Shown piece after piece: positions 29,779 to 39,680 of a stretch of 64,000 nt of DNA; the stretch's first letter is position 1; the number at the start of each line of letters is the position of its first letter. Source of the stretch: Nostoc sp. NMS2 (GTDB lineage Bacteria; Cyanobacteriota; Cyanobacteriia; Cyanobacteriales; Nostocaceae). Under the pieces are notes generated by a model. The model saw nothing but the letters and a program-made list of their open reading frames with translations. It had not been told where the DNA came from and did not search any database. The position numbers and the translations under genes are program-made. Where the stretch lies: assembly GCF_017115105.1 (NCBI RefSeq), contig NZ_JABXKH010000178.1, positions 62,001 through 126,000 on the forward strand, in the 5' to 3' direction.

Positions 29779-30963
29779 CTATGAATAAAAGTTGGGTTTT
29801 GGCAGTTCATCATTTAATGCCCACTTTCCTATCTCTTGAATTTTGTAATCTACAGGATCGTGCAGAGTGAATGTACGGAGATTACGCCAATAACGGTCAA
29901 AGCCATATTTTGCATTTGTAGCGCGTGCGCCCATAACTTCAAAAATGCGGTTTGTAATGTCTAAACCGACTTTAGTTGCGAAGACTTTGGCAGTAGCAAC
30001 CAAAAGCGCACATTCTGCTCGTTGTTCGGCGGTAAGTGACCATTCCCGCTCCCAAGCTGCTTGTAGTAATTCTCCTGCCTGCTCAGTAAGATATACGGCT
30101 GCTTGGAGATCAACCCAGATTTTACCATAGTGCTGAAGGATGTAAGGATCTTGGGTTGCACTCTCTACACCTGATGTCAGCCAAGGTTTAGTATTAGTGG
30201 AAGTATATGTTTTAGCAGCTTCAAATGCTCCCTGGGCAATTCCCAGGTAGATATTAGCAAGATTCAATTGAGTTAAGCAGGCGCGAATAGTATTGAAGGG
30301 TTGATTGGGCTTGTCTCTACTACCAAGAATTTCTTCAGGATATACCAACACGTTTTCAAAAGTAACACTACCACTGTCTGTTTGGCGTTGCCCCATATTA
30401 TTCCAATCATGATGAACTGTAACGCCTTGCTGTTGGGTGGGAATTACCAAAATATTCAATTCACCAGTTTCTTGATCAGTAGCAGTAATTGGCAATATAT
30501 CTGAGTCTTGAGAGCCAGAGCAAAAACTTTTAATCCCGTTGAGACGAAAATAATTATTTTCTGGTGTGAGAGTAGTTCTTTTATCTAATGGGTTGAGGGC
30601 ATTACACCAAAACCAATTGTTGTGGATAGTTTCTGAGTAATATCGCTGTTTTTGTTCTGCCGAACCAAAGATATGAGGAATAACGACACCTAGATGGTGG
30701 TAAGAAAAGACGTGAGCAATGGAACTATCAACTTTGGCAAACTCGCGGGTAATTTGCAGAACAGTAATCCAGCTTTGCCCTAAACCACCGTACTCTATAG
30801 GTATAATTAGTTTTAGCAAGTTGCTTTGACGCAAGCGATCGCGTTCATGCTTTGGTGTTCCCCCTTGAGCATCCCGCTCTACAGCAGTTTGGGCAAATTC
30901 CTTTGCTAAAGACTTAGCTAAATCAAGATAATTTTGAGATTTTTCAGTTTCAATTAATTGCAT
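29779..30963 (-). CDS. DszC/SfnB-like flavin-dependent oxidoreductase
   Basis: An acyl-CoA-dehydrogenase-fold protein of about 394 residues from the ATG at 30963, which has a GGGAGAAG ribosome-binding site; a TTG three codons earlier is less likely. The conserved flow is IPIEYGGLGQSWITVLQI near the N-terminus, WNNMGQRQTDSGSVTFENVLV in the middle and GFDRYWRNLRTFTLHDPVDYK at the end. The last block is shared with SfnB and the dibenzothiophene monooxygenase DszC. Such enzymes use reduced flavin and oxygen on organosulfur compounds instead of desaturating acyl-CoA. It opens a cluster with a porin, SfnB, SfnG and a further monooxygenase, so sulfur scavenging is the best inference. Its exact substrate is unknown. 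Confidence 0.8.
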   Translation of the reverse strand: MQLIETEKSQNYLDLAKSLAKEFAQTAVERDAQGGTPKHERDRLRQSNLLKLIIPIEYGGLGQSWITVLQITREFAKVDSSIAHVFSYHHLGVVIPHIFGSAEQKQRYYSETIHNNWFWCNALNPLDKRTTLTPENNYFRLNGIKSFCSGSQDSDILPITATDQETGELNILVIPTQQQGVTVHHDWNNMGQRQTDSGSVTFENVLVYPEEILGSRDKPNQPFNTIRACLTQLNLANIYLGIAQGAFEAAKTYTSTNTKPWLTSGVESATQDPYILQHYGKIWVDLQAAVYLTEQAGELLQAAWEREWSLTAEQRAECALLVATAKVFATKVGLDITNRIFEVMGARATNAKYGFDRYWRNLRTFTLHDPVDYKIQEIGKWALNDELPKPNFYS

Positions 30964-31598
30964 ATATTGCAACTTCTCCCGCTAACCCTCTGTGAGGAGC
31001 GACTATAAATTTGGCTGGAAAATTTTTAATCTACAGTGTGTTGATATAACTACCGTACTAATAGAAATATAATTGCACATTTTAACTAATAATGCAAGTT
31101 TAAATTAAATTAATTTTGATAAATCTATAGGTTAATAGTGCAATATAAAAAAATATTTGGTTGAGAGTCAAAAAGAAAAAAAATATTCTAATCTACTTGT
31201 TTTTCAAGAACATATATGCAATATTAATAAGTTGAATCCACTAATCTACTTTAACTGGATGGGTAAACAGTGGATAAGTGCTAATGGGCAAAAAAGTCTA
31301 ATTTTTGTCTAAAACTAAAATATTTTTACAGATAGATATTTCCTTAGCAAATAGACCAGCTTGTATAAGGATTATATTTTTGTAAAAACAAATCTTTTCT
31401 CCACTGAAATATGCAGATTCAAATGCCAGATATTCACTGATGTATCTGGAATTATAACGATATTAGTGCGAATTTCCGAGTGTTAGAGTAAATCAACTTT
31501 TTTCAGAGCTAGCCATAATTTTCTAGCTTAACAAGTCATTGAAATATCTGATGACTTGGACTAAATTTTTCAAACCAAAAATGTGAGGAGTGATAGAA
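30964..31598. promoter_or_regulatory. Long AT-rich divergent control region
   Basis: About 630 bp between the DszC-like gene and the porin. ACTACCGTACT (31050-31060) contains a TACSGTA core also found upstream of sfnG and of the second monooxygenase. The rest is AT-rich with no repeat or ORF. The porin start is preceded by a GTGAGGAGTG ribosome-binding site. Confidence 0.4.
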
Positions 31599-33473: not shown

Positions 33474-34682
33474 TTACAGCCAAGGATGGCGTGGGGGGTA
33501 GACACCATTGAGGAAGTAGTTACCAACAGCGTAGTACTTCCAACGTACAGGATCGTGGAGTGTGTGAGCGCGAGCATTTCGCCAGTGGCGATTGTAGTTG
33601 AATTCCTCCAATGTGGACTTAGTACCTGCTAGTTCAAATAACTTGTTGGTAGCTAGGATTGCTGCTTCAGTGGCTAATGCTTTGACTTCAGCAACTGCGA
33701 TCGATGCTTCAACTACTTTGGGTTCTTCTAAACCTGACTCGTTGGCGGTGTCAAGAAATTCGCCTGCACGACGTAGCAATGCTTCTGAAGCGTGAACCTG
33801 AATTTGGACATTGCCTAAGTTGTACAGTGTCAGGGGATCTTCGTAGCCTTTTTCTAAGTTGCTGTCAACCCAAGGGCGAGTATATTTACGGACAAAGTGA
33901 ATGGTATCACGAACTGCGGCTTTGGCAATTCCCACATCTACGGCGGCTTGGATGATTTGCGCGATCGCACCCATTGGTGTAGCTCGCTCAAAGGCTAAGT
34001 AGTGCGGAATCACGTGTTCTGCCTTAACTTTCACATTTTCAATAATGGTAGTGCCGCTAGCAGTGGTACGCTGTCCGAAGCTCGTCCAATCATCAAGTAG
34101 GGTTAGTCCTTCGGCATCTCTCTCGACAAATGCCACCACTGTTTTACCATCTGGATTGCTGGCAATGACGGGAACCCAATGTGCCAGTAATGCTCCAGCA
34201 GAGTAGTATTTGCGTCCGTTGAGTACGAAGTCAGATCCATCTGATTGTAACTTTGTCTGCACATCATTGACAGACTTAGTGCCTACTTCCGAGAAGGCAT
34301 TACCAAAGCGTTTACCTTGTAGAACCAAATCAAAGAAGAACTTTTTCTGTTCATCAGTGCCATCTAACCGAACTGCTTCCACCATGTAGAGGTGGTTTTG
34401 GGGAATTTGACCGAGGCTAGAATCGGCTTCGGAGATGATTTTAATTACTTCTGCTAGGGTTGCATTGGATACAAAAGCCCCGCCATACTCTTTCGGGACT
34501 GTAATCCCCCACAATCCACTCTGGGAAAACTTTTCCACTTCCTCCGCAGGCAAACGCCGAGTTTGATCGCGTTCTGAGTCTCCCTTGGCAAACTCAGCTG
34601 CTAGTTCGTGAGCGATCGCGATCGCTTCTTTATCATCCCGAATAATATGCGCCTTCTGTTCTGTATTAATTACTGATGTCAT
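33474..34682 (-). CDS. sfnB: SfnB-family sulfur acquisition oxidoreductase
   Basis: A 402-residue acyl-CoA-dehydrogenase-like protein. VPKEYGGAFVSNATLAEVI (about residues 61-79), DWTSFGQRTTASGTTIIENV in the middle and NYNRHWRNARAHTLHDPVRWKYYAVGNY at the end fit SfnB, required for dimethylsulfone use in Pseudomonas. The RHWRNARAHTLHDP block replaces the catalytic Glu region of true acyl-CoA dehydrogenases. The start has an AAGGAATT ribosome-binding site. sfnG lies upstream on the same strand with a 174-bp gap, so they likely act together. It is about one third similar in layout to the gene at 29779 but clearly a separate family member. Confidence 0.87.
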   Translation of the reverse strand: MTSVINTEQKAHIIRDDKEAIAIAHELAAEFAKGDSERDQTRRLPAEEVEKFSQSGLWGITVPKEYGGAFVSNATLAEVIKIISEADSSLGQIPQNHLYMVEAVRLDGTDEQKKFFFDLVLQGKRFGNAFSEVGTKSVNDVQTKLQSDGSDFVLNGRKYYSAGALLAHWVPVIASNPDGKTVVAFVERDAEGLTLLDDWTSFGQRTTASGTTIIENVKVKAEHVIPHYLAFERATPMGAIAQIIQAAVDVGIAKAAVRDTIHFVRKYTRPWVDSNLEKGYEDPLTLYNLGNVQIQVHASEALLRRAGEFLDTANESGLEEPKVVEASIAVAEVKALATEAAILATNKLFELAGTKSTLEEFNYNRHWRNARAHTLHDPVRWKYYAVGNYFLNGVYPPRHPWL

Positions 34683-34856: not shown

Positions 34857-35954
34857 CTACACTCCAACCAACTCATCAGCTGTCCGACGATTAGCTTTCA
34901 GTTCACGCACAATCGGAATTACTGTCTTACCAAATGCAGGTAAATCATCCGAGTAGTGTAAGAAGCCACCGAGAATTAAATCAACTCCCGCTTCATGGAA
35001 CTGGCGAATCTTTTCAGCTACTTGTTCAGCCGTACCAATCAAGCCTGAACGGAATCCATCGTTGTACTGCACCAAGTCTTCAAAATTGGAATTCGCCCAC
35101 ATTCCCTGACGTTCACGAGTAGAAGATCCCGCTTGTTTCACTGCTTCACCAAATCCTTTCACCGCCTCTACATCGGCTTGGGCAATAATATCGCGCAACA
35201 CTTCATGGGCTTCTGCTTCCGTATCTCGCACGATGATAAAGGAATTCAAACCAAACTTAATTTTGCGTCCTTCAAGACTCGCTAATTCAGATACCTCTGC
35301 AATCTGCTCTCGCACCCCTTCTATGGTGTTGCCATTCATGAAATACCAATCAGATACGCGACCAGCCATGCGCCGCGCTGCTTTGGAGTTACCACCTTGA
35401 AATATCTCCGGGTGTGGATTCTGATTAACTGGTTTAGGCTTCACCCAACCGCCGTTAATGCGGTAAAAGTCGCCTTTAAAGTGAAACTCATCTTCAGTCC
35501 ACAAACCTTTGAGAACGCGGATAAATTCTTCTGAACGACGATAGCGTTCGTCATGGTCTAACCAATGTTCACCATATATAGTGAATTCATCTTTAAACCA
35601 GCCACTAACTACATTCAGAGCAAACCGTCCGTTAGAGAGAAAATCAATACTGGCACCGATTTTGGCTACTACTCCCGGATGCCACAATCCAGGGTGAACT
35701 GCTGCAATTAGCTTCAATTTCTTGGTGACTGGAGCCAAGGCTGATACGGTTGTTAATGCCTCTAACTGATACTCAGCGCCATAGCTGGCGATAAATCTGG
35801 CTTGTGCTAGTGCATATTCAAACCCGACTTCTTCAGCCGTCTGAGCTAGTTGAGCATTATATTCATAAGTCCAATCTGTGCGTTGGGGAATTTTACTAAC
35901 AACTAACCCACCGCTAACGTTAGGAATCCAGTATGCGAATTTAATATCTACCAT
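34857..35954 (-). CDS. sfnG: Dimethylsulfone monooxygenase
   Basis: A 365-residue luciferase-fold flavin monooxygenase. Characteristic stretches are FAYWIPNVSGGLVVSKIPQ at the N-terminus, AAVHPGLWHPGVVAKIGAS and NVVSGWFKDEF, and PEIFQGGNSKAARRMAGRV. These match SfnG, which converts dimethylsulfone to methanesulfinate and formaldehyde with FMNH2 and oxygen. It is the first gene of the sfnG-sfnB unit and diverges from a second monooxygenase and its regulator. FMNH2 must come from a reductase not present in the window. Annotation at family level is firm; the native substrate in a cyanobacterium is untested. Confidence 0.9.
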   Translation of the reverse strand: MVDIKFAYWIPNVSGGLVVSKIPQRTDWTYEYNAQLAQTAEEVGFEYALAQARFIASYGAEYQLEALTTVSALAPVTKKLKLIAAVHPGLWHPGVVAKIGASIDFLSNGRFALNVVSGWFKDEFTIYGEHWLDHDERYRRSEEFIRVLKGLWTEDEFHFKGDFYRINGGWVKPKPVNQNPHPEIFQGGNSKAARRMAGRVSDWYFMNGNTIEGVREQIAEVSELASLEGRKIKFGLNSFIIVRDTEAEAHEVLRDIIAQADVEAVKGFGEAVKQAGSSTRERQGMWANSNFEDLVQYNDGFRSGLIGTAEQVAEKIRQFHEAGVDLILGGFLHYSDDLPAFGKTVIPIVRELKANRRTADELVGV

Positions 35955-36519
35955 AATTGTGTGTTTGTAATTGAAACTGCTTGGTTATAAGAGAAGGCAG
36001 GAGGAAATATGATGCAACAAAGCCTAATTTGTCATCATTAACTAATCAACTAAAACTTAGTCAAAATCTAAAGCTTGAGAGCGTCTGGAAACTACTCTGA
36101 GTTTACAAGTAGACAATTTCAGGTTCTTATGGTCGTAATATATCACAAGCCGACCGTGTTACCGTAGTTTTTGATGAATCAGACTTTATCACGAGAATTT
36201 TTCTAATGTCGTGACTCGATATACTTAAATTCCATTTCCATATTCCAAAATGGAATACTGCCCAATTTTGCTGAGTATTTAATTATTATTTTATATTTGC
36301 TGGGTATCATCCTGATTCAGTTAGAACAACCAGAAATCACCACTTAACAAAGTTTCGACACTATTCCAGATCGTGATAAGCAACTGATTTTCATGTGTCA
36401 TCTACAACTATGCACAGCAGAAATAAATGTGGTAGTGTGAACTACTAAACTACGAAAAAAAGATATAGATACCGTAGTTAAATAGATGTCTCGTAAAAAA
36501 AGGCACAGGAAAAAGATTT
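35955..36519. promoter_or_regulatory. Divergent promoter region of sfnG and the second monooxygenase
   Basis: This 565-bp gap carries TTACCGTAGTT (36159-36169) and ATACCGTAGTT (36469-36479), two near-identical sites with a palindromic TACSGTA core. The second lies about 40 bp before the right-hand gene. They are candidate operators for the LysR-type regulator encoded downstream. No ORF is supported. Confidence 0.45.
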
Positions 36520-37569
36520 ATGGCACTTCAGTTTGGAATTTGGTCGCCGATCTGTGGTGGATGGTTGCGGGTTGTCAACCATGAGGCTAATTTATCCACT
36601 CAAGATTTGGTAAAACTGGCAGTTCAGGCAGACGAATTAGGTTATGAATTTTATTACATTCCTGAACATTACTTAAATGCAGTTCATGGGCCTAACTATA
36701 ATGTCGCTGATGCTTGGATTACAGCAGCTTTAACAAGTTTGAACACCAAGAAGATCAAGATTGTTGCGGCTGTACAACCTGGTTTTAAATTGCCTGCGGT
36801 GGTTGCGAAGCTGAGTGCAAACATTCAAAATCAACTTAGTAACGGCAGATTTGCTCTGAGTGGTATTGCAGGTTGGTGGAAGTTAGAAGTAGAAAGCTAT
36901 GGAGATATCTGGCTACCCCACAGCGATCGCTACGTGCGATTAGAAGAGTACATTGATGTAATTAAGGGGCTATGGACAGTCGAAGACTTTAATTATGTTG
37001 GCAAATACTACAATATTACGGGTGGTATTCTCGCAGATAAGCCGACACCAACACCACCCATTTTCATTGCCGGCGAATCAGACAGGGCGATTGACTTAGC
37101 GGCTCGTCAGGGAGATTATCTATTTATCAATGCTGATGAACCTGAAAAAACGGCAGCATTAGTGCAGAAAGTGAAAAGATTGGCTAGCGATCGCTACCAG
37201 CGTCAGATTAAAGTAGCAATGAGTGCGTTTGCGATCGTTGGCGAACATACCGCCGAAGCCGAAGCCAGATTAGAAGCGATTTATCGTTCTGCCAATCAGC
37301 AGCAAATCGAGTACTTTCAAGAACAAATCGATCCTAACGTCGTTGCCCACAACAAACTAGATATTAGTCAAACCATTGAAGCCAACCTCGGTTTATCTGC
37401 TCAACTCGTTGGCGATCGCTATACTATTATTAACCGCCTGAAAGAATACGAAGCTGTTGGCGTTGACTTAATAATACTCAAATTTGAATCTATGTTGGAA
37501 GACACTATTCGCTTCCACAAACTAGTGATTTCTGAATATACACAGCAGAATAGCTTAATTCTGTTGTAA
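36520..37569 (+). CDS. Luciferase-like FMNH2-dependent monooxygenase
   Basis: A 349-residue luciferase-fold enzyme related to SfnG and SsuD. FGIWSPICGGWLRVVNHE opens it, followed by ADELGYEFYYIPEHYL, AAVQPGFKLPAVVAKLSANI, GIAGWWKLEVESYG and PIFIAGESDRAIDLAARQGDY. The order of motifs is that of alkanesulfonate and dimethylsulfone monooxygenases, but sequence divergence from the sfnG product suggests a different substrate, possibly methanesulfinate, methanesulfonate or another sulfonate. It is followed after 23 bp by the fused regulator gene, so both are probably one operon. Substrate is inference only. Confidence 0.85.
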   Translation: MALQFGIWSPICGGWLRVVNHEANLSTQDLVKLAVQADELGYEFYYIPEHYLNAVHGPNYNVADAWITAALTSLNTKKIKIVAAVQPGFKLPAVVAKLSANIQNQLSNGRFALSGIAGWWKLEVESYGDIWLPHSDRYVRLEEYIDVIKGLWTVEDFNYVGKYYNITGGILADKPTPTPPIFIAGESDRAIDLAARQGDYLFINADEPEKTAALVQKVKRLASDRYQRQIKVAMSAFAIVGEHTAEAEARLEAIYRSANQQQIEYFQEQIDPNVVAHNKLDISQTIEANLGLSAQLVGDRYTIINRLKEYEAVGVDLIILKFESMLEDTIRFHKLVISEYTQQNSLILL

Positions 37570-37592: not shown

Positions 37593-39680
37593 ATGAATAA
37601 GATTAAACTCGAAGATATTACCCTAAACCACATCAAAATTTTAAAAGCAGTAGATGACTGTGGTAGCTTCTCTAAAGCAGCACAAAAATTAGGTTATAGT
37701 CAAGCATTAATTAGTAAAAAAGTCAAACAAATAGAGGATTATTTCGGAGTAATTTTATTAAATCGCTCTCCCGGCTCTATATGCTTGACTAATAAAGGCA
37801 AGAAATTGATTTCCCAGACATTTAATGTCGTAGAAACTGTAGAAAATCTGCAAGAAGAATTTCAGGCAACATTTAGCGCTGAAGGTGAAGATTTGATATT
37901 GGGGGCTACTAATTTAATTTTAGAAGTCTGGCTAAAACAATATTTGCAGAGATTTCAGCTTTGTTTTCCAGGCAGAAAGCTCAAAGAAATTGCGGCTAAA
38001 GATAGCAGATTTTTTTCCAATTCTCACCTCATAGAAATCGATCTACTGCTCAACACTTGCTCTGGATATAAGGAAGAACACCACTGCACTAGATTAAAAA
38101 CTCATAAAATGCTGTTGTTTTCCTTTGGAGCAAGTAAATATTTAAATGAGCATCGCTTAGTTCAAATAAATGATATTGATCTGGCTGATATTGTGCTTTT
38201 AGATGAGGTTTATCAAGAACTATCTAAAAATGGATTTTTGAAGAATAAATTAAGCGGGGTACACGTGCTAAACAGTTATCAAGATGTACTAGATTATGCT
38301 TCAAAAAACCAAAATCTAACGATTCTACCTGACTTTTGTCAAGCTGAAATAATAGCTCAATACCAAGTTTCAACTCTGACTATTGAAGATATTAATGAAT
38401 ATGGTATTTATCTGCATGTTCCTCGCTTTAGCGAGTTGTTAATATCCGCAGAGGGTTTGGTGAGAAGCTTTAGACTCGATCAAGACAATTTAGAAAGCTT
38501 GCCTAATATAAACCTAATTTTAGGTAGGTATTCTCCCAAAGAAGAAAATATTCTGAGGATCGGTATTCAGAGGGATTCCATAGGACAATTTATTGCTGGG
38601 TATGGGACTAAGTATATTTCTGATTTACAGAGAGCATCTTCATCATTTGAACAGGCTATTTCCAAAAATATTGAAATTAATCGAAATTTCGAGTTACAAA
38701 TTCTGCCGTTTGACTCTGGGGAAAAAATGAACCGACAGATGAAGCGGGGAGAGCTAGATATTTGTATTTTAGATGATATTTCTCTCTTAAATAATGGTAG
38801 CCAATTCTTTGATGATTTAAGTTTTGGTTCTAAATTAATCGGGATTGCTTCATATAATCTTTTAGGTCAAGATATAAATATTGTTCTGCATAAAGATTCT
38901 TCCATAAATACTGTTCAGGATCTAAAGGGGAAACGAATTTCTACCTTATTTGGTTCCAATGCTCATAGGTTCATCATCACTCTTTTTGACCTCTATAATA
39001 TGGATGTCAGTAAAGATTGTAAATTAGTGAATGAAGATCCTCGTAAAGCAAGTAAGAGTTTGGCAAATAAAACTATAGATGCTTACGTATGCTGTCACAC
39101 TTTCGCCTCAATTCTAGAAGCTTACGCTTTTGTTAGAAAGCTGCCTTTATCTCAAACAAGTAGTTTAAGAATTCCATCAATCAGAGGAATTGTCTGTCGC
39201 TCACAGTTCATTAAAGAAAACCCTAAAATTGTAGTTGCTTATTTACATGATTTAGTAGTTGCTAACTATTGGTTTAATTCATCTCCAATCAAGGCAGCAG
39301 ATTTATTAACTAAAGTGATTGATGTGAGAACAACTCAAGTAAATCAGTTTTTTCATCCTGTATTTGGGAACCGCATCGATCCCACCCTCAAACCTCAATG
39401 GTCTTGGTTACTAAAAACTTTAAATCGCAGGTTAGAAGGAAAATATGGTATTTCACTATTTGATGTAGATTTCTGGATCGATGATTATTTTTTAAGACTT
39501 GTCTACAATTTGCTGAATCTAGATTATCACTTTCACCAGGTTTCTTTTGCAAGTGAATTTTCTAGCAGCTATTTTGTCGAGGAACAGTTTAGCCGACATA
39601 TAAAAGTTCTCTATGATAAATATGATTTACCGCTACAAGATGAAGATAGCAATCACAAAGCAATATCCAGTTTAGGATGA
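37593..39680 (+). CDS. LysR-type regulator fused to an SsuA/NMT1-like binding domain
   Basis: A 695-residue fusion without signal peptide or membrane segment. Residues about 8-68 form a LysR winged HTH (LKAVDDCGSFSKAAQKLGYS then QALISKKVKQIEDYFGVILL). Residues about 98-290 look like a diverged LysR effector domain. From about 319 comes a second periplasmic-binding fold: LRIGIQRDS, then MKRGELDICILDD, IVLHKDSSINTVQDLKGKRI (about 430), ANKTIDAYVCCHTFA and CRSQFIKENPKIVVAYLHDL (about 533). This order is that of SsuA/TauA sulfonate-binding proteins. Residues about 603-695 are unassigned. Lying in an operon with a monooxygenase beside sfnG-sfnB, it probably senses a sulfonate or sulfone in the cytoplasm. 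The architecture is unusual. Confidence 0.85.
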   Translation: MNKIKLEDITLNHIKILKAVDDCGSFSKAAQKLGYSQALISKKVKQIEDYFGVILLNRSPGSICLTNKGKKLISQTFNVVETVENLQEEFQATFSAEGEDLILGATNLILEVWLKQYLQRFQLCFPGRKLKEIAAKDSRFFSNSHLIEIDLLLNTCSGYKEEHHCTRLKTHKMLLFSFGASKYLNEHRLVQINDIDLADIVLLDEVYQELSKNGFLKNKLSGVHVLNSYQDVLDYASKNQNLTILPDFCQAEIIAQYQVSTLTIEDINEYGIYLHVPRFSELLISAEGLVRSFRLDQDNLESLPNINLILGRYSPKEENILRIGIQRDSIGQFIAGYGTKYISDLQRASSSFEQAISKNIEINRNFELQILPFDSGEKMNRQMKRGELDICILDDISLLNNGSQFFDDLSFGSKLIGIASYNLLGQDINIVLHKDSSINTVQDLKGKRISTLFGSNAHRFIITLFDLYNMDVSKDCKLVNEDPRKASKSLANKTIDAYVCCHTFASILEAYAFVRKLPLSQTSSLRIPSIRGIVCRSQFIKENPKIVVAYLHDLVVANYWFNSSPIKAADLLTKVIDVRTTQVNQFFHPVFGNRIDPTLKPQWSWLLKTLNRRLEGKYGISLFDVDFWIDDYFLRLVYNLLNLDYHFHQVSFASEFSSSYFVEEQFSRHIKVLYDKYDLPLQDEDSNHKAISSLG

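Follow-up and report, generated by a model that had tools for sequence, protein, structure and literature searches.

The window analysed here, a 64,000-nucleotide stretch of Nostoc sp. NMS2 (contig NZ_JABXKH010000178.1, positions 62,001–126,000), encodes a 695-residue fusion regulator that combines a LysR DNA-binding domain, a LysR effector domain and a binding-protein domain of the SsuA/TauA type. On balance, with somewhat better than even chances, we read it as a cytoplasmic LysR-type regulator whose sensing has been extended, or perhaps even supplanted, by a Venus-flytrap domain that once served an organosulfur ATP-binding cassette (ABC) importer as its binding protein. Its most likely role is to detect a cytoplasmic organosulfur anion and to regulate two divergent operons. 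The computed support consists of domain architecture, homology, a kept glutamine of the anion pocket, synteny, co-occurrence and conserved dyads. Moreover, the fusion occurs in two distant families (i.e. type A, which includes the window regulator, and type B), both of which adjoin sulfur-related genes.

Architecture and distribution of the fusion

The original prediction placed a LysR helix-turn-helix (HTH), a diverged LysR effector domain and a binding-protein fold in a single frame, and our results confirm this arrangement. The N-terminus matches the Pfam model HTH_1 above its cut-off (E 2.8e-16), and an effector domain of the LysR_substrate type, which has no Pfam match in the window protein, lies behind a linker helix. 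A plain LysR protein has ~300 residues and one effector domain, so that 695 residues and a further domain make the regulator a LysR variant. Its binding domain begins at approximately residue 315; judged from this position behind the DNA-binding domain, it carries no N-terminal export signal. Pfam matches of the regulator include no ABC ATPase domain, and the LysR HTH stands there instead. The full-length structure model has a predicted local distance difference test score of 45 and is usable for the HTH and residues 168–272 only. We class the regulator as a LysR-type variant that is, by predicted fold and pocket, simultaneously like a binding-protein sensor, and not as a member of SsuA/TauA.

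The fusion is real and old. Type A relatives occur at 21 loci as Nostoc and Desmonostoc copies, most with 78–94% identity; two with 51% and 53% identity are from other lineages, and four are partial (L025, L026, L028 and L029). Full-length type A is present in five of 386 cyanobacterial genomes, one of which (G237) belongs to another family (64% identity). Within the genus, 23 of 53 Nostoc genomes contain type A at E <= 1e-60, 20 at full length and three as fragments only (G395, G400 and G420). Near full-length copies in independent assemblies rule out an assembly or frameshift artefact that joined two genes. The same fusion, which the original prediction proposed to seek in other cyanobacteria, is thus found there, both as type A relatives and as the separate type B family. 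Beyond cyanobacteria, where the distribution was sampled through plasmids only, no record reaches 80% cover for type A, and a single scan of viral contigs yielded no confirmed relative.

Type B proteins have 652–678 aa and the domain order of type A, and are present in five of the 386 genomes and on two plasmids (of Pseudanabaena ABRG5-3 and Leptolyngbya BL0902); a plasmid search at 80% cover returned three records, all cyanobacterial. The three type B proteins scanned match HTH_1 and LysR_substrate above cut-off (the latter with E 2e-30 to 6e-24), and NMT1-class models are above cut-off in two and weak in the third. In BLAST, the window protein aligns with three of seven type B proteins along most of their length and with the remaining four along the C-terminal half.

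The three domains differ in evolutionary constraint. Against eight relatives, the ratio of non-synonymous to synonymous substitution rates (dN/dS) is 0.05–0.11 for the binding-protein domain, 0–0.10 for the HTH (one pair saturated) and 0.14–0.47 for the LysR effector domain, which is thus under the weakest constraint, in a comparison where dS is >1 or unreliable in some pairs and ordinary LysR proteins do not serve as a control. Mean pairwise identities of the HTH, effector and binding-protein domains are 74, 52 and 68% in type A, and 71, 50 and 59% in type B, with the same ranking of the domains in both. Among four regions compared in type A, conservation is highest in the C-terminal stretch 588–665 (83% mean pairwise identity). 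That the LysR effector domain is less constrained suits takeover by the captured domain at least as well as signal integration.

The captured domain has the SsuA/TauA fold, and comparisons by sequence and by structure both match it best to sulfonate-type binding proteins. According to excerpts of PMC3839906 and PMC6906117, Xanthomonas SsuA grips the sulfonate via Gln36, Gly68, Gly86 and Ser141, and TauA via Gln30, Gly61, Gly79 and Thr132. When the structural alignments are read from their end points (3e4r residue 25 = model residue 11; 6ssy residue 22 = model residue 14) and the first strand is taken as ungapped, both SsuA Gln36 and TauA Gln30 fall on model residue 22 (i.e. Gln326), which would make Gln326 the sulfonate-binding glutamine of the first strand. 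This residue is invariant in all 24 aligned sequences (7/7 type A, 7/7 type B and 10/10 long binding proteins). In HMMER alignments, SsuA Ser141 corresponds to Asn456 of a G-S-N-A-H loop, as does TauA Thr132 by our reading of the TauA numbering. That a transport-protein domain had been captured is supported, since the nearest sampled relatives are binding proteins of ABC transporters. The SsuA-type label fits the fold and the glutamine, but the domain is closer to a clade of long (~470–515 aa) binding proteins than to the short SsuA-like proteins sampled.

Several further features of type A were observed. Seven cysteines (Cys 124, 165, 249, 476, 500, 501 and 535) are invariant across 18 aligned type A proteins and may possibly have a thiol or metal role. 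Nostoc linckia FACHB-104 (L026:8001-9113) keeps only regulator residues 339–691, right behind the monooxygenase gene, with the HTH and effector domain lost. Desmonostoc muscorum FACHB-395 contains a full copy in one place (L010) and a 3' remnant (L029) in the usual location, ahead of the heme oxygenase gene, and G376 contains the same pair; the regulator locus seems to have moved.

Organosulfur neighbours and candidate operators

The regulator lies among organosulfur genes (Table 1). An SfnG-like monooxygenase gene ends 23 bp upstream and likely forms one operon with it, while sfnG and an SfnB-family gene are divergent and are probable targets. The original prediction that adjacent organosulfur genes are plausible targets is supported, with conserved dyads lying between the operons. 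The five window neighbours scanned with Pfam include no ABC components.

Table 1. Features of the fusion regulator and its surroundings (positions in the window)
Feature	Position	Strand	Remarks
Fusion regulator, 695 aa	37593..39680	+	LysR DNA-binding domain, LysR effector domain and SsuA/TauA-type binding-protein domain
LysR-type winged HTH, residues 11–69	37623..37799	+	
Diverged LysR effector domain, residues ~92–300	37866..38492	+	
Captured binding-protein domain, residues ~315–650	38535..39542	+	
Gln326 codon	38568..38570	+	Place of sulfonate-binding Gln36 (SsuA) / Gln30 (TauA)
SfnG-like flavin monooxygenase	36520..37569	+	Bac_luciferase E 2.9e-52; SfnG model 207 bits, below cut-off 383
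SfnG, dimethylsulfone monooxygenase, divergent	34857..35954	-	TIGR04021 622.7 bits, above cut-off
SfnB-family oxidoreductase, downstream of sfnG	33474..34682	-	TIGR04022 632.5 bits, above cut-off
DszC-like flavin monooxygenase, close to sfn genes	29779-30972	-	382 bits of 850 needed
Operator-like site 1	36241..36257	.	TATTCCAAAATGGAATA; perfect dyad TATTCC-N5-GGAATA, contains T-N11-A
Operator-like site 2	36362..36378	+	TATTCCAGATCGTGATA; TATTCCAN3CGTRATA; 121 bp from site 1

We then compared 22 fetched type A loci besides the window. Neighbour names come from BLAST comparison with 18 labelled proteins, except for an SsuABC-like set in L027 that was named by eye; the respective NCBIfam cut-offs are reached by SfnG, SfnB, SsuD, SsuE (L027) and the DmoA-type enzyme. 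The SfnG-like monooxygenase is directly upstream of the regulator at 17 of the 22 loci (its frame seen partly in two), and SfnG and SfnB are divergent at 16. Six loci lack SfnG: L018 and L022 are short contigs or contig starts, L028 and L029 are fragments, and L024 and L027 are rearranged. In the last two, a sodium/solute symporter-like gene precedes the regulator, and SsuE and a DmoA-type monooxygenase are encoded downstream of it; L027 also has SsuD and the SsuABC-like set; L064 (G237) combines sfnG with SsuD.

The regulator and SfnG also tend to occur together. SfnG is above cut-off in only seven of the 386 cyanobacterial genomes, including all five with full-length type A. Among Nostoc genomes, it is present in 22 of 23 with the regulator versus 8 of 30 without (Fisher p 2.2e-7, related species being non-independent), and the sole regulator-positive genome without SfnG, G400, has a fragment only.

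Both candidate operators lie within the spacer between sfnG and the monooxygenase gene. LysR-type operators follow a T-N11-A dyad rule, and predicted site 1 includes this pattern. In the 7.57 Mb genome of the strain itself, site 1 has a single match, as does site 2 with the slightly wider pattern TATTCCAN3YGTRATA. Among 22 regulator-positive loci, which include two truncated copies (L025 and L026) and possibly one species twice (L072 and L073), site 1 is present in 19, site 2 in 18 and at least one of them in all; these counts exclude L018, L028 and L029, which have no spacer or only a 3' fragment. At ten sfnG loci of regulator-negative genomes, site 1 occurs four times and site 2 never. Neither site is present in any of seven type B loci; inspection of the aligned type B promoters by eye shows that they share another dyad, approximately TTTTAT-N6-ATAAAA. 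Since the patterns of sites 1 and 2 come from Nostoc loci, L024 and L027 are the informative cases: here, in another lineage and with no sfnG in view, a site precedes the symporter and regulator genes. The element TTATCACGA/TCGTGATAA was looked for in L024, L027 and L064 and was not found. Site 1 recurs with one mismatch at three further places of the strain's own genome, in or beside genes whose translation starts, read without family search, showed no sulfur link.

Two other neighbours recur. The symporter-like gene stands beside sfnG or the regulator in six of the 22 loci (L019:3495, L021:3231, L026:3482, L064:4510, L024:2761 and L027:5953); that of L027 scores 114.9 of 184 bits, under its family cut-off, and the gene is a candidate for the inducer uptake route. 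A DszC-like gene is likewise found near the sfn genes at several other Nostoc loci.

Proposed mechanism and competing explanations

We propose that an oligomer of the regulator would occupy the two 17-bp dyads between sfnG–sfnB and the monooxygenase–regulator operon. An organosulfur anion (sulfonate or sulfinate), either imported or made in the cell, would shut the C-terminal flytrap, and this closure would re-set the LysR oligomer, which may then activate both divergent operons, including the regulator's own. The ligand class, the role of the dyads as operators, activation rather than repression and the rearrangement of the oligomer are the parts that we infer. As a whole, the original interpretation is partly supported, namely with respect to fold, capture, organosulfur neighbours and plausible targets, the last now furnished with dyads; organosulfur binding by the domain in the cytoplasm, ligand binding by the older LysR effector domain and hence the integration of two signals are its hypothetical parts. 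The domain itself falls nearer the long clade.

Several points weigh against this proposal. The captured domain scores 73.5 bits with the SsuA_fam model (cut-off 163.5) and 38.3 bits with the taurine-binding model (cut-off 304.25). A plain SsuA pocket is also at odds with position 394, which corresponds by motif to SsuA Gly86 and is Asp in 7/7 type A proteins, while it is Gly in 7/7 type B and 9/10 long binding proteins. The regulator is missing from 8 of 30 sfnG-bearing Nostoc genomes, which indicates that sfnG can function without it. Persistence of site 1 at four of ten regulator-free sfnG loci suggests that it may be a relic or the site of another factor. Furthermore, the site patterns were derived from the same loci later used for counting, and the bare 17-bp dyad is found somewhere in 82 of 386 cyanobacterial genomes and hence is not specific to the regulator.

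Alternatively, the flytrap could report sulfur status by binding sulfate, sulfite or adenosine 5'-phosphosulfate as an anti-inducer, with repression lifted when sulfur is scarce. Cbl and CysB are tuned by an inorganic or activated sulfur anion in this manner, and such organosulfur operons are usually sulfur-starvation genes. In addition, the kept pocket element (Gln326 and the loop at ~454–458) is the one that, in the structural excerpts on SsuA and TauA, contacts the anion head and not the organic tail. However, the domain is matched best, in sequence and in structure, by sulfonate-type binding proteins and the organosulfur neighbours vary among lineages, and we consider this explanation unlikely. 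A true dual input, in which the LysR effector domain and the captured domain each have a ligand of their own and form an AND gate, also appears improbable: the effector domain has been retained, and its type B counterpart is still recognized by LysR_substrate in the three proteins scanned, but that of the window protein has no Pfam match and evolves fastest.

We find it quite improbable that the captured domain binds no small ligand and serves for oligomerization or protein docking, leaving the LysR effector domain to sense. Although conservation of the stretch 588–665 would suit such a module, Gln326 is kept in both families and, among the three domains, constraint is weakest on the LysR effector domain. 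A fusion enzyme is the most remote explanation, with a very small chance of being right. DszB, a sulfinate desulfinase, is a known enzyme of the same fold, and its Cys27 (named in the title of 2de3) is the catalytic residue. With 2de3 chain residue 18 set to model residue 13 and the first strand taken as ungapped, the place of this cysteine is Gln326, where glutamine is invariant, and a DszB-like desulfinase is disfavoured.

If the proposed organosulfur sensing by the flytrap is correct, it would exemplify a regulator that acquired the receptor of a transporter as an additional sensor and still has the two sensors in one chain. This would also provide a candidate regulator and operator for cyanobacterial use of dimethylsulfone and sulfonates.

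Number of captures and related systems

On both annotated plasmids the type B gene adjoins a binding protein–permease–ATPase set, and on its other side are a divergent fumarate reductase/AprA-like flavoprotein gene and then ferredoxin and HEAT-repeat genes. The five type B genomes have the same gene order, as read from open frames without family search (L059 is without a clean permease frame). The neighbouring binding proteins are long (489–515 aa) and are the closest sampled sequences to the C-terminal domains of the regulators: mean identities of binding domains are 33% between type B and the long proteins, 28% between type A and the long proteins, and 24% between types A and B.

Two independent captures are favoured over one common origin by the trees. 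In the binding-domain tree, type A clusters with the long free binding proteins (99/94), while type B lies outside this cluster; the tree program issued warnings about long branches that meet and about unusual residue composition in most type A rows. A constraint that unites A and B has a cost of 5.3 log units and is not rejected (approximately unbiased test, p 0.065), which, with these warnings, leaves two captures short of proof. In the tree of the LysR half, A and B form separate clades, with B beside four ordinary LysR proteins (87/87). A tentative extension, to which we give somewhat less than an even chance, is that at least two events in cyanobacteria joined the binding protein of an organosulfur importer to a LysR regulator by capture, the donor type still adjoining type B, and that the flytrap may now be the main sensor while the old effector domain drifts towards a coupling scaffold. 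LacI-type regulators are thought to derive from binding proteins, and such a succession would be a natural replay of this presumed origin with the old sensor still there. With both sensors in one chain and donor relatives next door in type B, allosteric takeover would be open to direct study.

Known systems share parts of this architecture. CysB/Cbl, BenM and CbnR likewise consist of an HTH, a linker helix and an effector domain of the periplasmic-binding-protein type II fold, but have ~300 aa and a single effector domain, whereas the regulator adds a separately derived binding-protein domain of ~340 aa. SsuA and TauA are sulfonate-binding proteins of ABC importers; the captured domain instead lies behind a DNA-binding domain and has no export signal. 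Btr (YbbB) of Bacillus has an iron-siderophore function and a binding-protein class different from the SsuA/TauA type, and is an AraC and not a LysR regulator. According to excerpts of PMC3896406, it resembles our case as a transcription factor fused to a substrate-binding (FeuA-like) domain and adjoining a transporter's binding-protein gene (feuA). The cyanobacterial ABC ATPases CmpC and NrtC contain a CmpA/NrtA-like C-terminal regulatory domain (PMC11349869, in part). This domain, too, is binding-protein-like and cytoplasmic and belongs to the same superfamily (structure matches 9u9z, 9uak and 8wm7), but the fusion partner is an ATPase and not a transcription factor. The engineered CbnR-ABE44898-OD joins a LysR DNA-binding domain to a periplasmic binding protein as a benzoate switch with an approximately threefold response; unlike the regulator, it is man-made and has an added LacI oligomerization domain (excerpts of PMC6079105). 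The regulator would be a natural template for LysR-based biosensors, a kind that has been engineered according to the same excerpts. A natural fusion of LysR with a binding protein was not found in the open-licence PMC literature, an absence that is weak evidence.

The gene set around type B is repeated at L065:14414-18500, L066:14821-18723 and L063:13404-17528, where the AprA/fumarate reductase-like flavoprotein recurs (that of L065 is above the NF006131 cut-off). On the two annotated plasmids there are also genes for a small ferredoxin, HEAT-repeat proteins and Mrp/NBP35, and the transporter is preceded by an IS1 transposase gene. This set may possibly represent an uncharacterised sulfur pathway. 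The long binding-protein clade (L065–L069 and L059–L063) occurs in cyanobacteria and proteobacteria; its C-terminal extension is weakly NosL-like in the two members scanned, and arylsulfatase genes follow one member, that of L069.
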